Shown piece after piece: positions 3,648-29,034 of a stretch of 64,000 nt of DNA (position 1 is the first letter of the stretch; each line of letters begins with the position of its first letter). A program made the translations under genes and the position numbers. Origin of the DNA: an uncultured Acetobacteraceae bacterium (GTDB taxonomy: Bacteria > Pseudomonadota > Alphaproteobacteria > Acetobacterales > Acetobacteraceae). The notes beneath the pieces were generated by a model. That model worked only from the letters and a program-made list of their open reading frames with translations. It made no database searches and was not told the origin of the DNA. The DNA is taken from assembly GCA_937873095.1 (NCBI GenBank), contig CALMVI010000040.1, positions 1 to 64,000 of the forward strand. The letters are read 5' to 3'.

Positions 3648-4925
3648 ATGCCGCGAACCATGATCGCCGCCCTTGTGGCGTGCCTGGCACTTCCTTGCGC
3701 CGGCCACGCCAAGGCGGTCTCGCAGGTGGGCCAATGCAAAGGCAACACCGTCCTGCATTTTACAACGATCGGGGCGGCCTTGGCGGCCCAGTCCTCGGCC
3801 GGCTCCACCATCTACCTGTGCCCGAACGTCTATGCCGAACAGCTGACGATCACGAACCCCACAAACCTGATCGGGGTGAATGACGGAACATCCTCTGGCG
3901 CGATCCTGACTGCGCCGGCGTCCGGGCTGGTTGCGAACGCTCCGGGTTCCGATCCGAACGTCCCGTATGCGGCACAGATCGCCGTCATCGGCGCCGGCAC
4001 GGTCACCATCAGCAACGTGACGGTCGATGGCACCAACAACCAGATCGACGGCTGCGCGCCCATCCTGGTGGGCATACTCTACCAGAACACCAGCGGCACG
4101 GTGCAGAACAGTCGTGTGATCAACCAGGCTCTGGTCAACGGACAGAACGGTCTGGGCGGCTGTCAGAGCGGCAACGCGATCGAGCTTCTCGGCAGCGGCA
4201 GCCAGACCGTGAACGTGGTTGGCAACGACGTGACCGGCTTCCAGAAGAACGGCATCACCGTCGACTCTGTTGTGGCAACCATCACCGGCAACACGGTGAC
4301 CGGGCAGGGCGCCACGTCCGCGATCGCGCAGAACGGCATCGAAACAGACTCGTCGCCAGGCGTCCTGATCTCGCAGAACGTGGTGTCTGACCTGGTCTAT
4401 ACCGGACAGTATGGCGGCGCGACCGGCATCCTGATCTATGACAGCGCGCAAGCGCAGGTGAAGTCCAACACCGGCACCAACACGCAGGGGGTGATCTACG
4501 ACTTCGCCGACGAGACGGGGGCGTCCGACGCACCCACGATCACGTCCAACAGGATACAGGCGACGCATACGTTCGACGGCATCGACGTGTGCGGGGTTGG
4601 CAGTGCAGTGATCAGCGGAAACACCGTCAACGGTTCCGATGAATCCGCGGTCCACCTGGACAGCGAGTGTGTCGCCTACAACAGCGACGGCAGCACGACG
4701 CGGCTGTATAGCAGTGCTACGGTTTCGAACACCAAGGTCAACGGCGCCTGCGTGGGCATCCTCGTCGGTTCGGGGTCGACCCTATCTTCCAAATCCGGGA
4801 CGAACAGCCTCTTCAGCACAATCAGCAATACGCTGCTTGGGTCCGATACCTGTCCGGGCACGGCTCCACAGTTCGCCGTGCATGCGGGCGGCCGCAAGGC
4901 GAAGCGGGTAGCACCGCTTCGCTGA
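3648..4925 (+). CDS. Secreted right-handed parallel beta-helix repeat protein
   Basis: Signal peptide MPRTMIAALVACLALPCAGHAKA; repeated N-x-V/I beta-helix rungs (ITISNVTVDGTNNQI, VVGNDVTGFQKNGITVDSVVATITGNTVTG). Confidence 0.8.
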   Translation: MPRTMIAALVACLALPCAGHAKAVSQVGQCKGNTVLHFTTIGAALAAQSSAGSTIYLCPNVYAEQLTITNPTNLIGVNDGTSSGAILTAPASGLVANAPGSDPNVPYAAQIAVIGAGTVTISNVTVDGTNNQIDGCAPILVGILYQNTSGTVQNSRVINQALVNGQNGLGGCQSGNAIELLGSGSQTVNVVGNDVTGFQKNGITVDSVVATITGNTVTGQGATSAIAQNGIETDSSPGVLISQNVVSDLVYTGQYGGATGILIYDSAQAQVKSNTGTNTQGVIYDFADETGASDAPTITSNRIQATHTFDGIDVCGVGSAVISGNTVNGSDESAVHLDSECVAYNSDGSTTRLYSSATVSNTKVNGACVGILVGSGSTLSSKSGTNSLFSTISNTLLGSDTCPGTAPQFAVHAGGRKAKRVAPLR

Positions 4926-15126: not shown

Positions 15127-16866
15127 TCAGGACGGCGGGGAGCGGACCAGGATGGTCCTGACGCGGTCGGCCAGGGCGCCCATGCCGAACGGCTTGGTCA
15201 TCACCTGCATGCCCGGCTCCAGCTGGCCGTTGCCGACCACTGCGTTGTCGGCGTAGCCGGTGATGAACAGCACGCGCAGGTCCGGCCTGGTCAGCCGTGC
15301 CGCGTCGGCCACCTGCCGACCGTTCATGCCGCCGGGCAGGCCGACATCGGTGATCAGCAGGTCGATCCGCGTGCCGGACTGGACCAGGCGCAGGCCGGAC
15401 GCGCCGTCCACCGCCTCCAGCGTGCGGTAGCCGAGCTCGCCCAGCACGTCGGATACCAGCATGCGCACCGTCGGCTCGTCGTCGACCACCAGCACCGTTT
15501 CGTTGTTGACTGCCGCGGCCGGTTCGGGCTCCTGCACGAGCTCGGCCTCCTGCACCGGGGCGACGGTGTGGCGCGGCAGGTAGATGCGCACCGTGGTGCC
15601 ATGCCCGGCCTCGCTGTAGATGCGCGCCTGGCCGCCGGACTGGCGGGCGAAACCGTAGATCATCGACAGGCCGAGCCCGGTGCCGAGCCCGATCGGCTTG
15701 GTGGTGAAGAACGGATCGAACGCACGGGCGGCGACCTCCGGCGGCATGCCGGTGCCGGTGTCGGTCACGCACAGCGCCACGTACTGGCCGGGCGCCATGT
15801 CGCGTTCGCGCGCGCCGCGCTCGTCGAGCCAGACATTGGCGGTTTCCACCGTCAGCCGGCCGCCATCGGGCATCGCGTCGCGGGCGTTGATGCACAGGTT
15901 CAGAAGAGCGTTTTCCAGCTGGTTCGGGTCGCACAACGTCGGCCACAGGCCGACCGCGAGCACCGTCTCCATGGTGATCTGCGGCGTCACGGTGCGGGCG
16001 AGCAGCTCGGCCATGCCGGCGATCAGCCGGTTCATGTCGGTCGCGCGCGGGTCCAGCGTCTGGCGGCGCGAGAACGCCAGCAGGCGGTGGGTCAGGGCGG
16101 CCGCCCGCGCGGCTGCTCCCTGGGCGGCCGTCAGGTAGCGGTCCAGGTCGCCTGTGCGGCCCTCCGCCACCCGCATCTTCAGCATCTCCAGGCTGCCGGT
16201 GATGCCGGTGAGGAGGTTGTTGAAATCGTGCGCCAGTCCGCCCGTCAGCTGGCCCACCGCCTCCATCTTCTGCGACTGGCGCAGCGCGTCCTCGACCCGT
16301 TCACGCTCGGCCTGTTCGGCCAGCAGCCGGTCATGGGCGTGGGCCAGGGCGTGTATGTGGGCTTTCTGCGCCCGCAGGTCGGTCAGCACGCCGCATAGCA
16401 GCACGTCGCCCTCGCGCTGGTGCAGCAGGCTGAGGGAGATTTGCACCGGCAGCATCCCGGCGGCGGTGTGCAGGCTGAACTCGTCCCTGGCGCTTGCGGT
16501 GCGGGCCTCGATCAGCGCCGCCTCGAAGCGTTCGGCGTCGGCCGGCGGCATGAACGGCTGCAGCGCGCGCCCGATCGCGCGCTCCTGCGGGATGCCGAGC
16601 ATCGCCGCCAGGCAGCGGTTGCAGTAGAGCACGGTGCCGTCGCCGGCCAGCGTGACCGCGCCTTCCTGGATCTGCTCGATCAGCACGCGATAGGGGTGGT
16701 CGCTGCTCTCCAGCGTGTAGACGCGGTGGTCGCCCGCCCCGGCCGCCACCACCAGCGCGTCGACCTCGCCGCGGCGGATCGCCTCGAGCGTCTCCTCGCT
16801 CTCCTCCAGCCGCGCCTGCAGCTCGGCGATGCGGGCGAGGTCGGCGTCGCGGCCGGAGCTGCTCAC
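15127..16866 (-). CDS. Hybrid sensor histidine kinase (PAS-HisKA-HATPase-REC), Kai-operon associated
   Basis: GGLAHDFNNLLTGITGSLEML H-box; NLCINARDAMPDGG; GTGLGLSMIYGF; C-terminal VLVVDDEPTVRML receiver. Confidence 0.93.
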   Translation of the reverse strand: MSSSGRDADLARIAELQARLEESEETLEAIRRGEVDALVVAAGAGDHRVYTLESSDHPYRVLIEQIQEGAVTLAGDGTVLYCNRCLAAMLGIPQERAIGRALQPFMPPADAERFEAALIEARTASARDEFSLHTAAGMLPVQISLSLLHQREGDVLLCGVLTDLRAQKAHIHALAHAHDRLLAEQAERERVEDALRQSQKMEAVGQLTGGLAHDFNNLLTGITGSLEMLKMRVAEGRTGDLDRYLTAAQGAAARAAALTHRLLAFSRRQTLDPRATDMNRLIAGMAELLARTVTPQITMETVLAVGLWPTLCDPNQLENALLNLCINARDAMPDGGRLTVETANVWLDERGARERDMAPGQYVALCVTDTGTGMPPEVAARAFDPFFTTKPIGLGTGLGLSMIYGFARQSGGQARIYSEAGHGTTVRIYLPRHTVAPVQEAELVQEPEPAAAVNNETVLVVDDEPTVRMLVSDVLGELGYRTLEAVDGASGLRLVQSGTRIDLLITDVGLPGGMNGRQVADAARLTRPDLRVLFITGYADNAVVGNGQLEPGMQVMTKPFGMGALADRVRTILVRSPPS

Positions 16867-17168
16867 GGCCCGTCCGCGGGCAGGTCGAGGCCGCGCAGCA
16901 CGCGCGCCGTCTGCGACAGGTCGCCGATGATGCGGCGGACCGGCCCTGGCGCCAGCTTCATCAGGGTCGGCGCGGCGACCACCTGGTAGCGCGCGGCAAG
17001 TTCGGGCTGCTGATATATGTCGACTATCTCGAGGTCGTATCGGCTGGGCATCCGCTCGGCGCAGAACCGCCGCAGGTTCTCGATCGCGCGCTGCGACAGG
17101 CCGTTGGTGCCGGCCACGAACAACCGCAGCTGATAAGTGACCGCCGCATCGTCCTGCGTCCCGGTCAA
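16863..17168 (-). CDS. KaiB family protein, divergent paralog
   Basis: [78 protein letters not shown]. Confidence 0.9.
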
Positions 17169-17488
17169 GCCGGCCCGGCGGGCGTCTTGGGGCAGATGTC
17201 CAGGCCCACCAGCACCTTCTCCGTGTCGGACAGGTCTCCGATCAGGCGCTTGAGCGGTGCGGGCAGCCGCCGGACGAGAGTGGGGATCGCCAGGATCTGG
17301 TCGCTCGCCGCACGCTGCGGGTTCTGGGCCAGGTCGATCACCTCGACGTCGTAGCGGCCCGCCAGATGCTCCTCGCAGACCCGCTTGAGGTTGGCGATCG
17401 CGGCCAGCGATTTCGCGGTCTGCCCGGCGACGTAGAGGCGCAGGTGATACTGTCCGTCCGCCTCGGCCTCCTGGTCCTGCGGGGTCAT
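17165..17488 (-). CDS. kaiB: KaiB, canonical-like paralog
   Basis: [85 protein letters not shown]. Confidence 0.93.
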
Positions 17489-19224
17489 CCCTGGCTCACG
17501 AAGCTGCGCCGCGCGGCCATGGCGTCGCGGTTCCTGGCGATCGCCGCATCGGTCTCGGCGGCTTCGGCCAGCAGCGCGGCCACCTCCTCCTCCTCCTGCT
17601 CCAGCGTCATCCGCAGCTCCTCGATCTGCCGCTCCACCGCCTGGCGCCGCCGCTGGTGCTCGCGCCGGCGCTGCTCGATCGCGCGGAGCCGCCGCGTTCC
17701 CTCGGCACGCTCCATCGCCTCCTGCGCCTCGCGCGCGGTTCCGGTCAGCACGCCGGCGGGCCCGACATAGGCGCTGGTCAGGACCACGCCGCGGTCGGTG
17801 ATCCTGTACTCGCGCATCTGGTTGGAGTGGTTCATGCCCCTGGACTTGATGATGTAGAGGATGCGGTCGCGCTCCCCGTTGGCTTCCACGTCCAGCAGCT
17901 TGATCCAGGCGTCCATCAGCGAGGAGAGCCCCTGGTCGGTCGCTTCGGCGATCGACCCGTCGGTGCGCAGGCTGGTGAACAGGCCGGTGATGCCGCGCGC
18001 CTTGAGCATGTCCACCATGCGAAGCAGCGTCGCATGCACCTGGACGGCCGGGCCGCGGAAGGCGGAGAGCGGATCGATGACGACGGTCGTCGGGCGGAAC
18101 CGCTCCAGCGCGCGATACATGCGCGCCAGATGCATCTCCAGCCCGAACAGGCTCGGACGGGCCGGCTCGAATTGCAGCAGCCCCTGGTCGGCACGCTGCC
18201 TTAGGTCGATGCCGACCGAACCGGCATTGCGGCAGATCTCGCGCGCGCTCTCCTCCAGGACGAAATACAGGCAGCGCTCGCCGCGTGCGCAGGTCGCCTC
18301 GGCGAAATGGGAGGCCAGCGTGGTCTTGCCGGTCCCCGCGACGCCGGACAGCAGGATGCTCGACCCGCGATAGAACCCGCGATGCTGGAGCATGTCGTCC
18401 AGACCCGAGATGCCGGTGCCGACAACCGTCGAGTCCACGTCGCGCTCCAGGCCGGACGAGGTGATCGGCAGGACGCTGATGCCGAGGTCGTCGATCAGGA
18501 ACGGATACTCGTTGGTGCCGTGCGCCGAGCCGCGATACTTCACCACGCGCAGCCGCCGGGTGGTGATCTGGTCGTCCACCCGGTTGTCGAGCAGGATGAC
18601 GCAGTCCGAGACGTATTCCTCGAGCCCGTGGCGGGTCAGCTGGCCTTCGCCGCGCTCGCCCGTGATGACGGCGGTCAGGTTGCGTTCCTTCAGCCAGCCA
18701 AACAGCCGGCGCAGCTCTGCCCGCAGGATCGAAGGGTCGGTGAAGCCGGAAAACAGGGTCTCGATGGTGTCGAGCACGACGCGCCTGGCGCCTATGCTGT
18801 CGACCGCAAAGCCCAGGCGGACGAACAGTCCTTCGAGGTCGTACTCGCCCGATTCCTCGATTTCGGACCGTTCCACCCGCACGTGGTCGATGGCCAGGCG
18901 GCGCGAGGCGACCAGGCCCTGCAGGTCGTAGCCGAGCGAGGCGACGTTGGCTTCGAGATCCTCGACCCGCTCCTCGAAGCTCATGAACACGCCCGGCTCG
19001 TCGTGCAGCGTCGCCCCGTTGACCAGGAAGGTGGTGGCGAACAGCGTCTTGCCGCAGCCCGCGGCGCCGCAGACCAGGGTGGGCCGGCCGGCCGGCAACC
19101 CGCCCAGCGTGATCTCGTCGAAGCCCAGTATGCCGGTAGGCGCCTTGAGCAGCCCGGCACGGTATGCCTGGGGTGAGCGGTCCTCGGTCATCGGTCGGAG
19201 CAGCACCTTGATTGCCTCCGCCAC
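17485..19224 (-). CDS. kaiC: Circadian clock-type ATPase KaiC (SS-type, C-terminal coiled-coil extension)
   Basis: Two RecA-like domains: [15 protein letters not shown] and [62 protein letters not shown]; Arg/Glu-rich coiled-coil tail. Confidence 0.93.
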
Positions 19225-19377
19225 GTTGTAGAGGTTTCCCTAGGCGGCGCCAGCGCTGCCCGGCGAAAACGCCGATTGTGTCCGAAGACGAGGCATGGTC
19301 TGCTTCGTGGTGCGCTCGACGCGACCGCACCGGATGGAGCACAGGCCGTTGCGGCTGCAGAGCGGGCATCGCACCAC

Positions 19378-19437
19378 ATGAGCGCGCGAGTCATATGAGC
19401 GCGGGCGTCACATGAGCGCGGGCGTCACATGAGCGCA
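19378..19437. repeat. 17-bp imperfect tandem repeat, about 4 units
   Basis: ATG at 19378, 19395, 19412 and 19429; unit (c/t)atgagcgcgggcgtca. Confidence 0.8.
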
Positions 19438-19686
19438 AGCGGGGCCGCGGAGCGGATGGCGGAGCTGGAAAAGCTTATCTCCAGCGTCCGTCACGACGTG
19501 TGCGGCGCGCTGACCCCGGCGCTGATGGTGGCGGACAGCCTGCAGTCGCACGCCGACCCCGCCGTGCAGCGTGCGGGGGCGAAGATCGCCCAGTCGATCA
19601 TGCGGGCGACGACGATGCTGAAAGCCACGCGCGAGGCCGTGCCGCCGATGCGGCACGCGGCGGGGGCGGACCGGCCGGGCGGGTAG
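19429..19686 (+). CDS. Small orphan histidine-kinase DHp-like protein (no ATPase domain)
   Basis: MAELEKLISSVRHDVCGALTPALMVADSLQSHADPAVQRAGAKIAQSIMRATTMLKATRE resembles HisKA H-box helical hairpin. Confidence 0.6.
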   Translation: MSASGAAERMAELEKLISSVRHDVCGALTPALMVADSLQSHADPAVQRAGAKIAQSIMRATTMLKATREAVPPMRHAAGADRPGG

Positions 19687-19723: not shown

Positions 19724-21307
19724 ATGACCCCGCTTGAACGCCAGATCATCGACGAGCACCGCGCCGGACGGCTCAGCCGCAGGATGTTCCTCCGGCACGC
19801 GTCCAGGATCGGCCTGCTCGCGGCACTGCCTGCACCTGCGGCGGCGCTGGGACGGCCGGGTGCCACCGTACGCGTCGCCTCCCAGGTGCCGTCGGGCGCG
19901 CTCGAGCCGTTGACGGTCTCCGAGATCGGCGGCCTGGCGATGCTGTGCCAGACCGGCGAGTTCCTCATCTTCGACGGTTCGGACCTGGTCCTGCGCCCGT
20001 CGCTTGCGACCGGCTGGACGCCCGATGCCGATTGCTCGACCTGGACGTTCACCCTTCGCCCGGGCGTGAAGTTCCATGACGGCCAGGCGTTCGGCGCGGC
20101 CGACGTGGTGGCGACGATGGACCGTCTCTGCGACCCGAGGCAGGGATCGAACGCGCTGTCGGTGCTGCGCGGCGTGCTCTCGCCAGGCGGCACCAGGCGC
20201 ATCGACGAGCTGACCGTGCGGTTCGAGCTCGACGCGCCGAACGGCAATTTTCCGTATTACGTGTCGTCGGACAACTACAACGCGATCATGCTGCCGGCGA
20301 ACTACGCGGGCGATTTCGAGGCGAACTTCAACGGCACGGGACCGTTCCGGTTGGAGCGCTACGCGGCCAAGCAGGGAGCGAGCTTCGTCCGCAACCCGGC
20401 CTATTGGGGCCGCGCGGCCCTGCCGGCGCGGACCGAGTTCACGTTCTTCACCGACCAGCAGCCGCAGATCCTGGCGCTCGAGGACGACCAGGTGGACGCG
20501 ATCGTGCAGATCTCGGTGCAGGGGGCGCAGGGCCTGCTGCGCGACCCGGACGTGCGGATCATCGACATCCCCGCTTCCACCCACCGGCAGATACACCTGC
20601 GCTGCGACCAGGGCCCGCTCGCCGACAGGCGGGTAAGGCAGGCGATCGCGCTGTGCCTGGACCGGCCTGGCATCCTGCACGGGCTGTTCCAGGGGCGCGC
20701 CCGTCTCGGCAACGACTCGCCGTTCGACCCGATGTTCGCCTCGACCGACCGTTCGGTGCCGCAGCGCAGGAAGGACCTGTCGCGGGCCATGGCGCTGATG
20801 AACGAGGCGGGGCATGCGGACGGGTTCGAGACGACCCTGACCACCGAGCGGCAGCAGGAGATACCGGACCTGGCCGTGCTGGTGCAGAACGCCTGCGGGC
20901 AGATCGGCATACGGGTCGGGCTGCGCATCGAGGACCCCGGCACCTATTACGGCACCGCGCAGTTCGGCCGGTCGGACTGGCTCGACAGCGCGATCGGCAT
21001 CACCGATTACGGGCATCGCGGCGTGCCCAACGTCAACCTGGCGGCGCCCTATCTCAGCAACGGCGCCTGGAATGCCGCGCATTTCCGCAGCGCAGAGTAC
21101 GACCGGCTGGTGGCCGGCTACATCGCGGCCACCGACCTGTCGGCACAGCGCGTGCTTGCGGGCAGGATACAGACCCTGCTGCTGGACGAGACGCCGGTGA
21201 TCATTCCGTATTTCTACGACTACATCTGCGCCACCGGCCCGACCGTCACCGGCGTCGCCGTCAGCGGCCTGTCGCAGATCTTCCTGCAGGACGCGGCGCT
21301 GTCCTGA
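19724..21307 (+). CDS. Peptide/oligopeptide ABC transporter substrate-binding protein (SBP family 5)
   Basis: WTFTLRPGVKFHDGQAFGAADVVATMDRL; LTTERQQEIPDLAVLVQNACGQIGI; N-terminal Tat-like SRRMFLRHASRIG. Confidence 0.93.
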   Translation: MTPLERQIIDEHRAGRLSRRMFLRHASRIGLLAALPAPAAALGRPGATVRVASQVPSGALEPLTVSEIGGLAMLCQTGEFLIFDGSDLVLRPSLATGWTPDADCSTWTFTLRPGVKFHDGQAFGAADVVATMDRLCDPRQGSNALSVLRGVLSPGGTRRIDELTVRFELDAPNGNFPYYVSSDNYNAIMLPANYAGDFEANFNGTGPFRLERYAAKQGASFVRNPAYWGRAALPARTEFTFFTDQQPQILALEDDQVDAIVQISVQGAQGLLRDPDVRIIDIPASTHRQIHLRCDQGPLADRRVRQAIALCLDRPGILHGLFQGRARLGNDSPFDPMFASTDRSVPQRRKDLSRAMALMNEAGHADGFETTLTTERQQEIPDLAVLVQNACGQIGIRVGLRIEDPGTYYGTAQFGRSDWLDSAIGITDYGHRGVPNVNLAAPYLSNGAWNAAHFRSAEYDRLVAGYIAATDLSAQRVLAGRIQTLLLDETPVIIPYFYDYICATGPTVTGVAVSGLSQIFLQDAALS

Positions 21308-25042: not shown

Positions 25043-25306
25043 TCACACCCATTGCCGCCGAAGGTCGACCAGGTGCAGCACCAGCGCGCCGAGCAGGCCG
25101 CCCGAGACGAACCCCCACCACGCGCCGCCGAGCGCGAGACGCATCGCCAGCACCAGGCATAGTCCCGAGCCGAGGTTCCACACCAGCCCGGACGGCGCCA
25201 CGCCGCGCCCGCGCACCCGAAACAGCAGCACCAGCGCCATCCCCTCGCACAGCATGCCGGCCAGGATGAAATCCAGCACCCGGCCATGCGCCATCAGCGC
25301 CGTCAC
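25043..25306 (-). CDS. Small membrane protein, bchO-coupled, unknown function
   Basis: 87 aa, about 3 hydrophobic helices; start overlaps bchO stop. Confidence 0.65.
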   Translation of the reverse strand: MTALMAHGRVLDFILAGMLCEGMALVLLFRVRGRGVAPSGLVWNLGSGLCLVLAMRLALGGAWWGFVSGGLLGALVLHLVDLRRQWV

Positions 25307-26205
25307 GCCGCCCCCACCGAACGCGCGAACGCCTCGACCGCCGCCGCTGCGCGTTCCGGCGCCTCCTCATGCGCGAGGTGCCCCAGCCCCGCCCAGTGGA
25401 TCACGCGCGCGTGCGGCACCAGCGCCGCCACCCGGTCCGCGTCGCGGGGCGGGATGGCCCTGTCGTTGTCAGCCGCCACCAGCAGCAGAGGGGTCGCCAG
25501 CCGCGGCAGGTCCCTGACGACCGGAACGAGGTCCCAGTTCGCCATCATCCGCAGCGCGCCCGCCGCATGCCCGGGCTCGCGCACCAGCCGCGCGTAGTAT
25601 CCGACGCCCGCCGCATCGAGCCGCGACCCGGTGCCGGCCAGCAGCCGCTCCACCACGCGGGGGTCGCCCGCCCGCCAGGCAAACAGCTGCGGCAGCACCG
25701 GCAGCCCCACCAGCAGGCGCGCGAGCGGCGCGAACACCTGGCCCGCCGGCCCGGCCAGCGGCATGAACGCCCCGTTCAGGCTGACCAGCCCGGCCGGCGC
25801 GATCATCCTGTCGATGCACATGCGCGCGAGAACCGCGGCCCCTGCCGAATGTCCCACGGCCAGCGCCGGCTCGCTGCCGATCGCGTCCAGCAATCCCGCA
25901 AGATCCCTCGCCATCGCCGGCAGCGACAGGCGGTGCCCGCCCGGAACGCTGGTGAAGCCGTGCCCGGGCAGGTCGGGCGCCACCACCCGGAAGTGCCGCA
26001 CCAGATACGGCCAGACGCCGCGCCAGGAATGGGTGGACGCGCCGGTCCCGTGCAGCAGCAGCATGACGGGTGCCGTGTCCGCGCCGCCGACCTGCACGTG
26101 CCATGTCAGCGGCCCCACGCGCAGGAACCGGCTCGCGTCGCGGTTCGGCCAGTCCGCCGCCTGCGCCCAGCGCGCGGGCGGGGCCGCATCGCCGGCCGGG
26201 TTCAC
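25303..26205 (-). CDS. bchO: Mg-chelatase-associated alpha/beta hydrolase
   Basis: MLLLHGTGASTHSWRGVWPYLVRHFRVVAPDLPGHGFT, GHSAGAAVLARM; position next to bchD. Confidence 0.9.
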   Translation of the reverse strand: MNPAGDAAPPARWAQAADWPNRDASRFLRVGPLTWHVQVGGADTAPVMLLLHGTGASTHSWRGVWPYLVRHFRVVAPDLPGHGFTSVPGGHRLSLPAMARDLAGLLDAIGSEPALAVGHSAGAAVLARMCIDRMIAPAGLVSLNGAFMPLAGPAGQVFAPLARLLVGLPVLPQLFAWRAGDPRVVERLLAGTGSRLDAAGVGYYARLVREPGHAAGALRMMANWDLVPVVRDLPRLATPLLLVAADNDRAIPPRDADRVAALVPHARVIHWAGLGHLAHEEAPERAAAAVEAFARSVGAA

Positions 26206-27929
26206 GATCGCGCCGCCGCCCGCACCGCCTGCGAGAGGCCGGCGGCATCGGCGTAGGGCAGGGGAACGTAGAGCGCGCCCATGGCCTGGGCCAACGCGCC
26301 CGCCTCGGCCCCAGGACGCGGCGACGTGTCCAGGACCAGCGCCGACACGCCGCCCGCCCGCAGCCGGCGCGACGCCGCCAGGGCGTCCTGCGCGGCCTGC
26401 GCTCGCCCGGCCGCCCCCGCCCGCGTCACGTTCGCCCGGCCGTCGGTCAGGAACACGAGCGTCGGCGCGCAACCGCTCCGGCGGAGCGTCTCGGCCAGCA
26501 GGAAACCGGCGTCGATGCCGGCGGCCAGAGGCGTGCCGCCGCCGCCGGGCAGGGCCGCCCGGCTGCGTTTGGCCCGCACCAGAGAGCGCGTCGGCGGCAG
26601 CAGCACCTGCGCCCCGCGGCCGCGGAACGCCAGCACGGCCACCTCGTCGCGGCGCCGGTAGCATTCGGCGAGCAACAGCTCCACCGCGCCCTTCGCCTCG
26701 GCAAGGCGGTTCAGCGCGGACGACCCGGACGCGTCCACCACGAACACCGTGGTGCTGCGCGTCCGCTGCTCGCAACGCGTCACCCGGAAATCCTCCCGCC
26801 GCAGCCTGATGCGCCCGTCATTCGGGGCCGCCTTGTCCTCGGCCGCCCGCACGCGCTGCCAGGGCGCTGCGGCGCGCAGGGTTTCCAAGAAGTTCAGCCG
26901 CATTCCCGGACCTGGCGCCGCCGCGCGCACGCCCACCGGCCGGCCCCTCGGTGCAGCTTCGCGCGCTTTCTGGCGCGCTCCCTCACTCCCCTGCGACCGC
27001 GAGGTGCTGCGAAAATCCTTCGCCTGCAGCCGGGCCAGCAGACCCGGCGGGATCGCGGCACGCGCCGCCTCCAGCACGATCTCCGAGCCGGAGGCCCGCT
27101 CGGCCTCGCCCGACCCCGCATCCGCCGGCGCGTCGCCCGGCTGGGACGGGGCCTCAGCCTCCGCCGCCTCGCCGGGCGGGGATGCCGGCGCTTGCGTGGC
27201 CCGCGGCGCCAGCACCAGCCGCGCCGCTGCGGCGGCGTCCTGCATCGTGGCCACGCCGCGGCCATCCAGCGCGGCCACGCCATGCGCCGCTCTGAGCGCC
27301 AGCAGGACGGCCCGCGGCGAACCGATGCCGAGTGCCACGGCCGCCGCACACACCGCTTCCAGCACGCCCGGCTCGGCCGCGACCTCGGGCAGCATCCGGC
27401 GCGCCGCGTCGATGGCGCCGCGTTGGGGGAGCCCGGCGCCGGCCGCGCGATGGCTCACGCCGGACAGATCGAGGTGGAAGGCCAGGCGGTCGGCCAGGGC
27501 AGGCATGGTCCGCTCGTCTTCGGTCGCGCCCTCGTCGAGCGCCACGATGCCGATGCCGGCCCCGCTATCCAGCGCCGCGGCCAGCCGGGCGGCCAGCGCC
27601 GCCGTCATCCGCTCGGCCATCGCGGCGAGCAGGGTGCCGCCACGCGCCTCTGCCAGCAGCCCGCGCGAGCGGACCGGACGCCCGGCCCGCAGCGTTGCGG
27701 CCAGGTCGAGCCCGCCGAGCAGCGCGTCGTCGGCGATGCTGGCCGGCATGCGCCGCATCGGCCCGGCGATCAGCGCCAGGAACCGGTCGCGCACCGGGCC
27801 CGCCTGCGCCCGCACGGCAATGCCCCCCGTTCCGACCGGGTCGACGCTGTAGAGCGCCGCCGACTGCACCGCGTCGTCCCAGACCGACGGGTCCAAGCCG
27901 GGCCGGTCCGAGGCGGACGGGTCGGTCAA
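26202..27929 (-). CDS. bchD: Magnesium chelatase subunit D (likely TTG start)
   Basis: [43 protein letters not shown]; Pro/acidic linker; next to bchI. Confidence 0.93.
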
Positions 27930-28996
27930 GCCGCCGCACCGAGGATGGGGGGATGCGTGGGTGTGGGCGCGGGCTCCGCCCCGCTTCTGCCCGCCAGCTG
28001 CAGGATCGCCCGCTCCACCCTGACCGTCGACCCGGCCTCGTCCAGCGGGTCGCGCCGCAGGCGGTGCCGAAGGGCCGACGGCGCCACCTGTTCGACCTGG
28101 CGGACCGACGCCGCGGTCTCGCCGTCCAGGCAGGCCAGGGCGCGCGCGGCCCGCAACAGGGTCAGCTCCGCCCGCAACCCGTCCGTGCCCAGCGCCATGC
28201 ACAGGCGTGCGGCGTGTTCCAGCACGGCGTCCGGCACGTCCACCGACGGCAGCAGGGCGCGCGCCGCCTCGATCCGCGCGCGCAGGCGCTCGTCCTCGCC
28301 CTGCCAGCGGGCGCAGAAGGCGGCAGGATCGCGCTCATAGGCGTCGCGCCGGCGCACGATGTCGATCCGCTCGGCGATGTCGGTCGGCGTGCCGACCTCC
28401 ACCGACAACCCGAACCGGTCCAGGAGCTGCGGCCGCAGCTCGCCCTCCTCCGGGTTGCCGCTGCCCACCAGCACGAAGCGGGCAGGGTGGCGCACGCTCA
28501 GCCCTTCGCGCTCGACCACATTCTCGCCCGAGGCGGCGACGTCGATCAGCAGGTCGACGAGGTGGTCTTCAAGCAGGTTCACCTCGTCGATGTAGAGGAA
28601 GCCCCGGTTGGCGCGCGCCAGCAGGCCCGGCTCGAACGCCCGCTCACCGCGCGTCAGCGCGCGCTCCAGGTCCAGCGCGCCGACCACGCGGTCCTCGGTC
28701 GCCCCGAGCGGCATGTCGACCACGGCGACCGGGGCCAGCCGCTCGCCCCTGGGCTCCGGCCGCGCCAGGCACTCGTCGCACAACGCGCCTGCGGGGTCGC
28801 AGGCGTAGCGGCATCCATCCACCACGCGCATCGGCGGCAGCAATGCCGCCAGCGCACGCACGGCGGTGGACTTGCCCGTGCCGCGGTCGCCGAACACCAG
28901 GACGCCGCCGATCGTCGGGTCGACCGCCGCGACCAGCAGCGCCCGCTTCATCTCCTCCTGACCAACGATCGCCGAGAACGGAAATGCCTGACGCAT
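27926..28996 (-). CDS. bchI: Magnesium chelatase ATPase subunit I
   Basis: [95 protein letters not shown]. Confidence 0.97.
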
Positions 28997-29034
28997 GCGC
29001 AAACCCCAGACCCCCAACTTCTCTATGAGGATTT

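Follow-up and report, generated by a model that had tools for sequence, protein, structure and literature searches.

A stand-alone DHp-type mini-protein gene beside kaiC, and a predicted kinase-derived family of such proteins in Acetobacteraceae

Genes and features at the locus

The window, by which the whole analysed stretch of 64,000 nucleotides from an uncultured Acetobacteraceae bacterium is meant, carries an ORF of 85 aa that is divergent from a kaiC gene and precedes a gene for a family-5 solute-binding protein beginning at 19724 (Table 1). The ORF had been described in an earlier note, and its coordinates, quoted sequence and orientation relative to kaiC were all exact. The statement in that note that no HATPase domain follows the hairpin was also correct, as the ORF stops before the solute-binding protein gene. 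Each unit of the 17-bp tandem repeat that spans the start region forms a tiny ORF, MSA(R/G)V(I/T)-stop, whose TGA overlaps the next ATG.

Table 1. Coordinates of the mini-protein gene, its predicted elements and the neighbouring Kai genes in the window
Feature	Position	Strand	Remarks
Kai-associated hybrid kinase, PAS-HisKA-HATPase-REC	15127..16866	-	possible partner
Second kaiB	16863..17168	-	PF07689
kaiB	17165..17488	-	PF07689
kaiC, divergent neighbour	17485..19224	-	PF06745, E 3.4e-108
17-bp tandem repeat, across start region	19375..19436	+	3.6 copies
Stand-alone DHp (HisKA-like) mini-protein gene	19429..19686	+	85 aa; same-genus ortholog 66–68 % identical, dN/dS ~0.21
Predicted helix 1, residues 3–38	19435..19542	+	bears H-box; AlphaFold2 model, mean pLDDT 72
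His22-Asp23, H-box pair	19492..19497	+	His in 54/54, acidic next residue in 52/54 aligned mini-proteins
Predicted helix 2, residues 44–70	19558..19638	+	same AlphaFold2 model of the window protein, mean pLDDT 72

The GC content of the mini-protein ORF by codon position was 0.72/0.56/0.93, like that of the adjoining genes. Comparison with an ortholog from the same genus (66–68 % identity) revealed no indels across 66 codons and differences that fell mainly in third positions (14/12/34 by codon position), with a dN of 0.23 and a dS of 1.12 (NG86). The coding-type GC3 and the predominance of third-position changes indicate that the ORF is genuine and that purifying selection acts on it. Elsewhere in the window, at ~25300–29000 on the (-) strand, are ORFs resembling bacteriochlorophyll genes (BchD, BchI and BchO-like), as judged from their translations alone.

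Identification as a DHp hairpin

The protein had been read in the earlier note as a histidine-kinase phosphoacceptor (DHp) hairpin, and this was borne out at the level of its family, which combines an invariant H-box His and matches to HisKA with the lack of a catalytic ATPase domain. The lone window sequence was not matched by HisKA in a Pfam scan, but 40 of 54 related short proteins were (best E 6.1e-6, with matches reported up to E 10), which overturns the negative result obtained with the single sequence. No NCBIfam match to the window protein was found either, nor any Pfam match to HATPase, and the ORF ends 15 residues past helix 2, so that the protein does not qualify as a sensor histidine kinase. 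In Pfam the protein matched neither the C-terminal HPTransfase domain of ChpT (PF10090), for which it is also too short, nor HPt (PF01627), and it was absent from the genome-wide Hpt matches of the window genome. A weak match to C_GCAxxG_C_C (E 0.02) was dismissed as chance.

Loss of the His in orthologs, like the lack of a HisKA match, had been named beforehand as evidence against a DHp hairpin; the His was retained in every one of the 54 aligned mini-proteins, which points to purifying selection on the H-box in proteins that have no CA domain. The exceptions to the acidic residue that follows it were H-N in L141 and H-G in L134, the latter being an ortholog of the window protein (3842–4204, +) in which Gly replaces Asp. 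An R directly before the His, giving an R-H-D motif, was present in 44/54 mini-proteins versus 0/22 kinase relatives. Among the 54 short proteins, position His+4 is G in 38, N in 12 and S in 4, and the window copy has Gly where the HisKA phosphatase motif has Thr/Asn.

The two helices of Table 1 were predicted in a single-chain AlphaFold2 model of moderate confidence, and a Foldseek search of the PDB with this model returned nothing significant, the best DHp match being CpxA (TM 0.63, E 6). Direct sequence matches in the PDB (queries A1 and A6) were at chance level only. On the sequence evidence, the window protein is a predicted stand-alone, soluble hairpin of the DHp (HisKA) type with neither a sensor nor an ATPase domain, a reading which holds because the family matches HisKA and not because of the single sequence.

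A family of full-length kinases and reduced forms

Relatives sought in 60 related genomes were of two kinds, namely short proteins of ~60–200 aa and full-length kinases of ~500 aa (sensor/HAMP-HisKA-HATPase), in which an ATPase domain comes after the matched DHp stretch. All 22 full-length relatives matched both HisKA and HATPase_c (Pfam), and alignment of the mini-protein profile with the DHp of the full-length kinases (hhalign) gave a probability of 99.1 % (E 1.3e-18). The DHp hairpins of the two kinds are ~35–46 % identical and they share an H-D-L-R box and, in Acetobacteraceae, an rpmH-side locus, whereas the mini-protein lacks the sensor and ATPase domains and carries R in place of the S that precedes the His in the kinases; the window copy further differs in having C and not R at His+3. 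Several short members possess an N-terminal hydrophobic stretch which, judged by eye, resembles a membrane helix. No paper describing this DHp-only family was found in a literature search of partial coverage.

A class-wide search matched 139 of 289 alphaproteobacterial genomes, about half. Outside Acetobacteraceae were 136 of these 139, each with one match and with frames of at least 366 aa, save for one DHp-containing frame of 244 aa (G325:C20:10219-10380), the sole short one in this search. A scan of genome contigs for the DHp family gave four loci only.

At most of the fetched Acetobacteraceae loci, which were chosen and not random, the family gene is divergent from rpmH-rnpA-yidD-yidC-engB-argB, and this place is held by the DHp-only form in some loci and by the full-length kinase in others. 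An FAD/NAD oxidoreductase gene and a VTT-domain gene lie between the DHp gene and rpmH in some loci of both forms. Homology and synteny thus support a probable origin of the short proteins by truncation within Acetobacteraceae, at the locus divergent from rpmH-rnpA-yidC. A tree of 81 DHp domains, rough because it has few columns, was reconstructed from 22 full-length kinases, 46 short proteins from the rpmH side (assigned by the presence of rpmH, rnpA or ftsW in the fetched sequence), 12 short proteins from elsewhere and the window copy. Short or degenerate forms were paired with full-length kinases in this tree, L136 with L146 (96/88) and, separately, L032 with L148 (99/84), which suggests more than one reduction. 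The plain reading is that an ancestral single-copy alphaproteobacterial kinase was cut down to its DHp hairpin in many Acetobacteraceae, apparently more than once. The family thus appears to show recurrent shrinkage of a conserved kinase to nothing but the phosphoacceptor hairpin, with no extra C-terminal domain such as both Spo0B and ChpT have kept.

The window copy clustered with L022 (from genome G001) and L134 (from G117) with support of 100/92, and these three next joined further paralogs (98/83). None of the dispersed paralogs of this clade was found at the rpmH locus, and they had no conserved neighbours. The window genome also carries the rpmH-side form of the family, and the window copy is best described as a soluble, dispersed paralog of the reduced rpmH-side protein, as placed by the tree.

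Some loci showed further arrangements. In L032 (4599–5234, -) the DHp is followed by ~130 residues like a degenerate ATPase domain, a form intermediate between the kinase and the bare hairpin. L040 (288–1502, -) encodes a patatin-like protein with a DHp hairpin fused at its C-terminus, and in L125 a patatin gene adjoins the DHp gene.

Proposed function and alternatives

Phosphotransfer is the most likely function of the mini-protein, and on balance we favour a truncation-derived, dispersed paralog that would act as a homodimeric four-helix-bundle histidine phosphotransferase in the manner of Spo0B and ChpT. As in the relays of Spo0B and ChpT, the phosphoryl group would move from a hybrid kinase's receiver domain to His22 and from there to a response regulator; self-phosphorylation is not to be expected of a DHp that has no ATPase domain. 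Kinases of the HisKA-HATPase-REC type are present in genomes G024, G027 and G010, and G015 and G024 had no Hpt or ChpT match above the cut-off. A ChpT-like gene is present in the window genome, so no missing phosphotransferase role needs to be filled there.

The known phosphotransferases resemble the mini-protein to differing degrees. Spo0B, which acts in Bacillus sporulation, has the box S-R-H-D-W-M-N (confirmed against 1f51) and so has the R-H-D motif in common with it; both have a DHp hairpin expected to dimerize into a four-helix bundle, and autokinase activity is not expected. Spo0B differs in possessing an extra C-terminal domain, and no sequence homology was detected. ChpT (PF10090), which functions as a phosphotransferase (PMC3433190) in the CckA-ChpT-CtrA relay, is likewise histidine-kinase-like, with an H-D box and no autokinase activity, but it retains an atypical Bergerat domain (PMC3433190) that is missing from the mini-protein, which derives from a different kinase family. 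The HPt domain (PF01627) is also a stand-alone histidine phosphotransfer module, as the mini-protein would be if its proposed function is right; most HPt domains form a four-helix bundle as monomers, whereas the mini-protein is a predicted two-helix hairpin with no Pfam Hpt match.

The main rival is a kinase modulator: the hairpin would pair with the DHp of a full-length kinase in a mixed dimer, and would either block that kinase or receive phosphate in trans from its ATPase domain. The model for this is the RetS–GacS pair, which is regulated through DHp contacts, although RetS is a large sensor and not a bare hairpin. It is in keeping with such pairing that DHp is a dimerization domain and that the RetS–GacS DHp complex was among the matches of the fold search, albeit a non-significant one. 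In CrdS, the acidic residue beside the His is required for the kinase step and not for the phosphatase step (PMC3510030), and its retention in 52/54 of the proteins lacking a catalytic ATPase domain could mean that they are phosphorylated in trans by the ATPase domain of another kinase. A pure blocker, however, would have no need of an invariant His, the H-D pair is present in the known DHp-type phosphotransferase Spo0B too, and a full-length member of the same family was not seen in most genomes with the hairpin. Modulation by pairing is the less probable function, with an appreciable chance of being correct, and a phosphotransferase appears the better guess. Decay of a kinase gene into a functionless remnant would account for the origin of the family by truncation, for a start codon region inside a tandem repeat and for the loss of the acidic residue in one ortholog, but it is very improbable in view of the low dN/dS, the typical codon use, the His that is invariant in 54 proteins and the occurrence of the family across many genera at one locus.

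The position of the gene raises another alternative, that of a dedicated Kai output in which the mini-protein would serve the REC domain of the 15127–16866 hybrid kinase as its phosphotransferase; the earlier note had inferred a phosphotransfer or adaptor protein linked to this kinase. The gene is divergent from kaiC at a distance of ~200 bp or less, and a hybrid kinase with a REC domain is usually in need of a phosphotransfer partner. The adjacency was not conserved in relatives, however. kaiC was present in 32 of 300 Acetobacteraceae genomes, and among 30 kaiC loci from this family (flanks of ~1.5 kb) a DHp gene was found beside kaiC at only one, that of the window, the 29 others having none. 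The closest orthologs, in G001 and G117, sit elsewhere, and kaiC was not matched at the threshold used in either genome or in G002; the paralogs of the window clade, as described above, have no conserved neighbours. A link to the Kai system is not supported by these comparisons; a dedicated Kai output is therefore improbable, and dedication of the protein to the Kai kinase is unlikely; we judge the adjacency of the window gene to kaiC to be incidental. kaiC and the family coincide a second time in G153, where the family member is of the kinase form and kaiC is disrupted: at L144 (G153:C327, 5201–6720) two fragments of a broken kaiC, containing internal stops, separate rpmH from the full-length kinase.

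Possible relation to the ChpT gap in Acetobacteraceae

ChpT has gone undetected in many Rhodospirillales (PMC2877005; PMC8116508), and stand-in phosphotransferases have been suggested for relays that lack it in one of these two studies. The DHp-only family is a candidate, and no more than that, for the phosphotransferase reported missing in Acetobacteraceae; being fixed at one locus, it is a concrete and cheaply testable one. That the reduced hairpin replaced ChpT in Acetobacteraceae, moving phosphate from hybrid kinases to CtrA, is doubtful; on this reading a widespread sensor kinase would have become a mere carrier of phosphate on more than one occasion.

ChpT (PF10090) was found in 86 of 150 Acetobacteraceae genomes; by family state it was present in 15/48 genomes with the DHp-only form, 19/29 with the full-length kinase and 44/55 without the family, the form being deduced from the length of the frame in genomes whose locus had not been read, and absence of ChpT, as of Hpt, CtrA or kaiC, meaning no match at the stated threshold. 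The associations between ChpT, CtrA and the DHp family are confounded by phylogeny and profile sensitivity, and it is with this qualification that CtrA was found in 28/32 of the ChpT-negative genomes with the DHp-only form versus 4/11 of those without it (Fisher p 0.002). The CtrA query was a Caulobacter sequence, which gave matches at 43–62 % identity. Counted by genus, the ChpT-negative set contained CtrA in 21/23 versus 4/8 (p 0.026).
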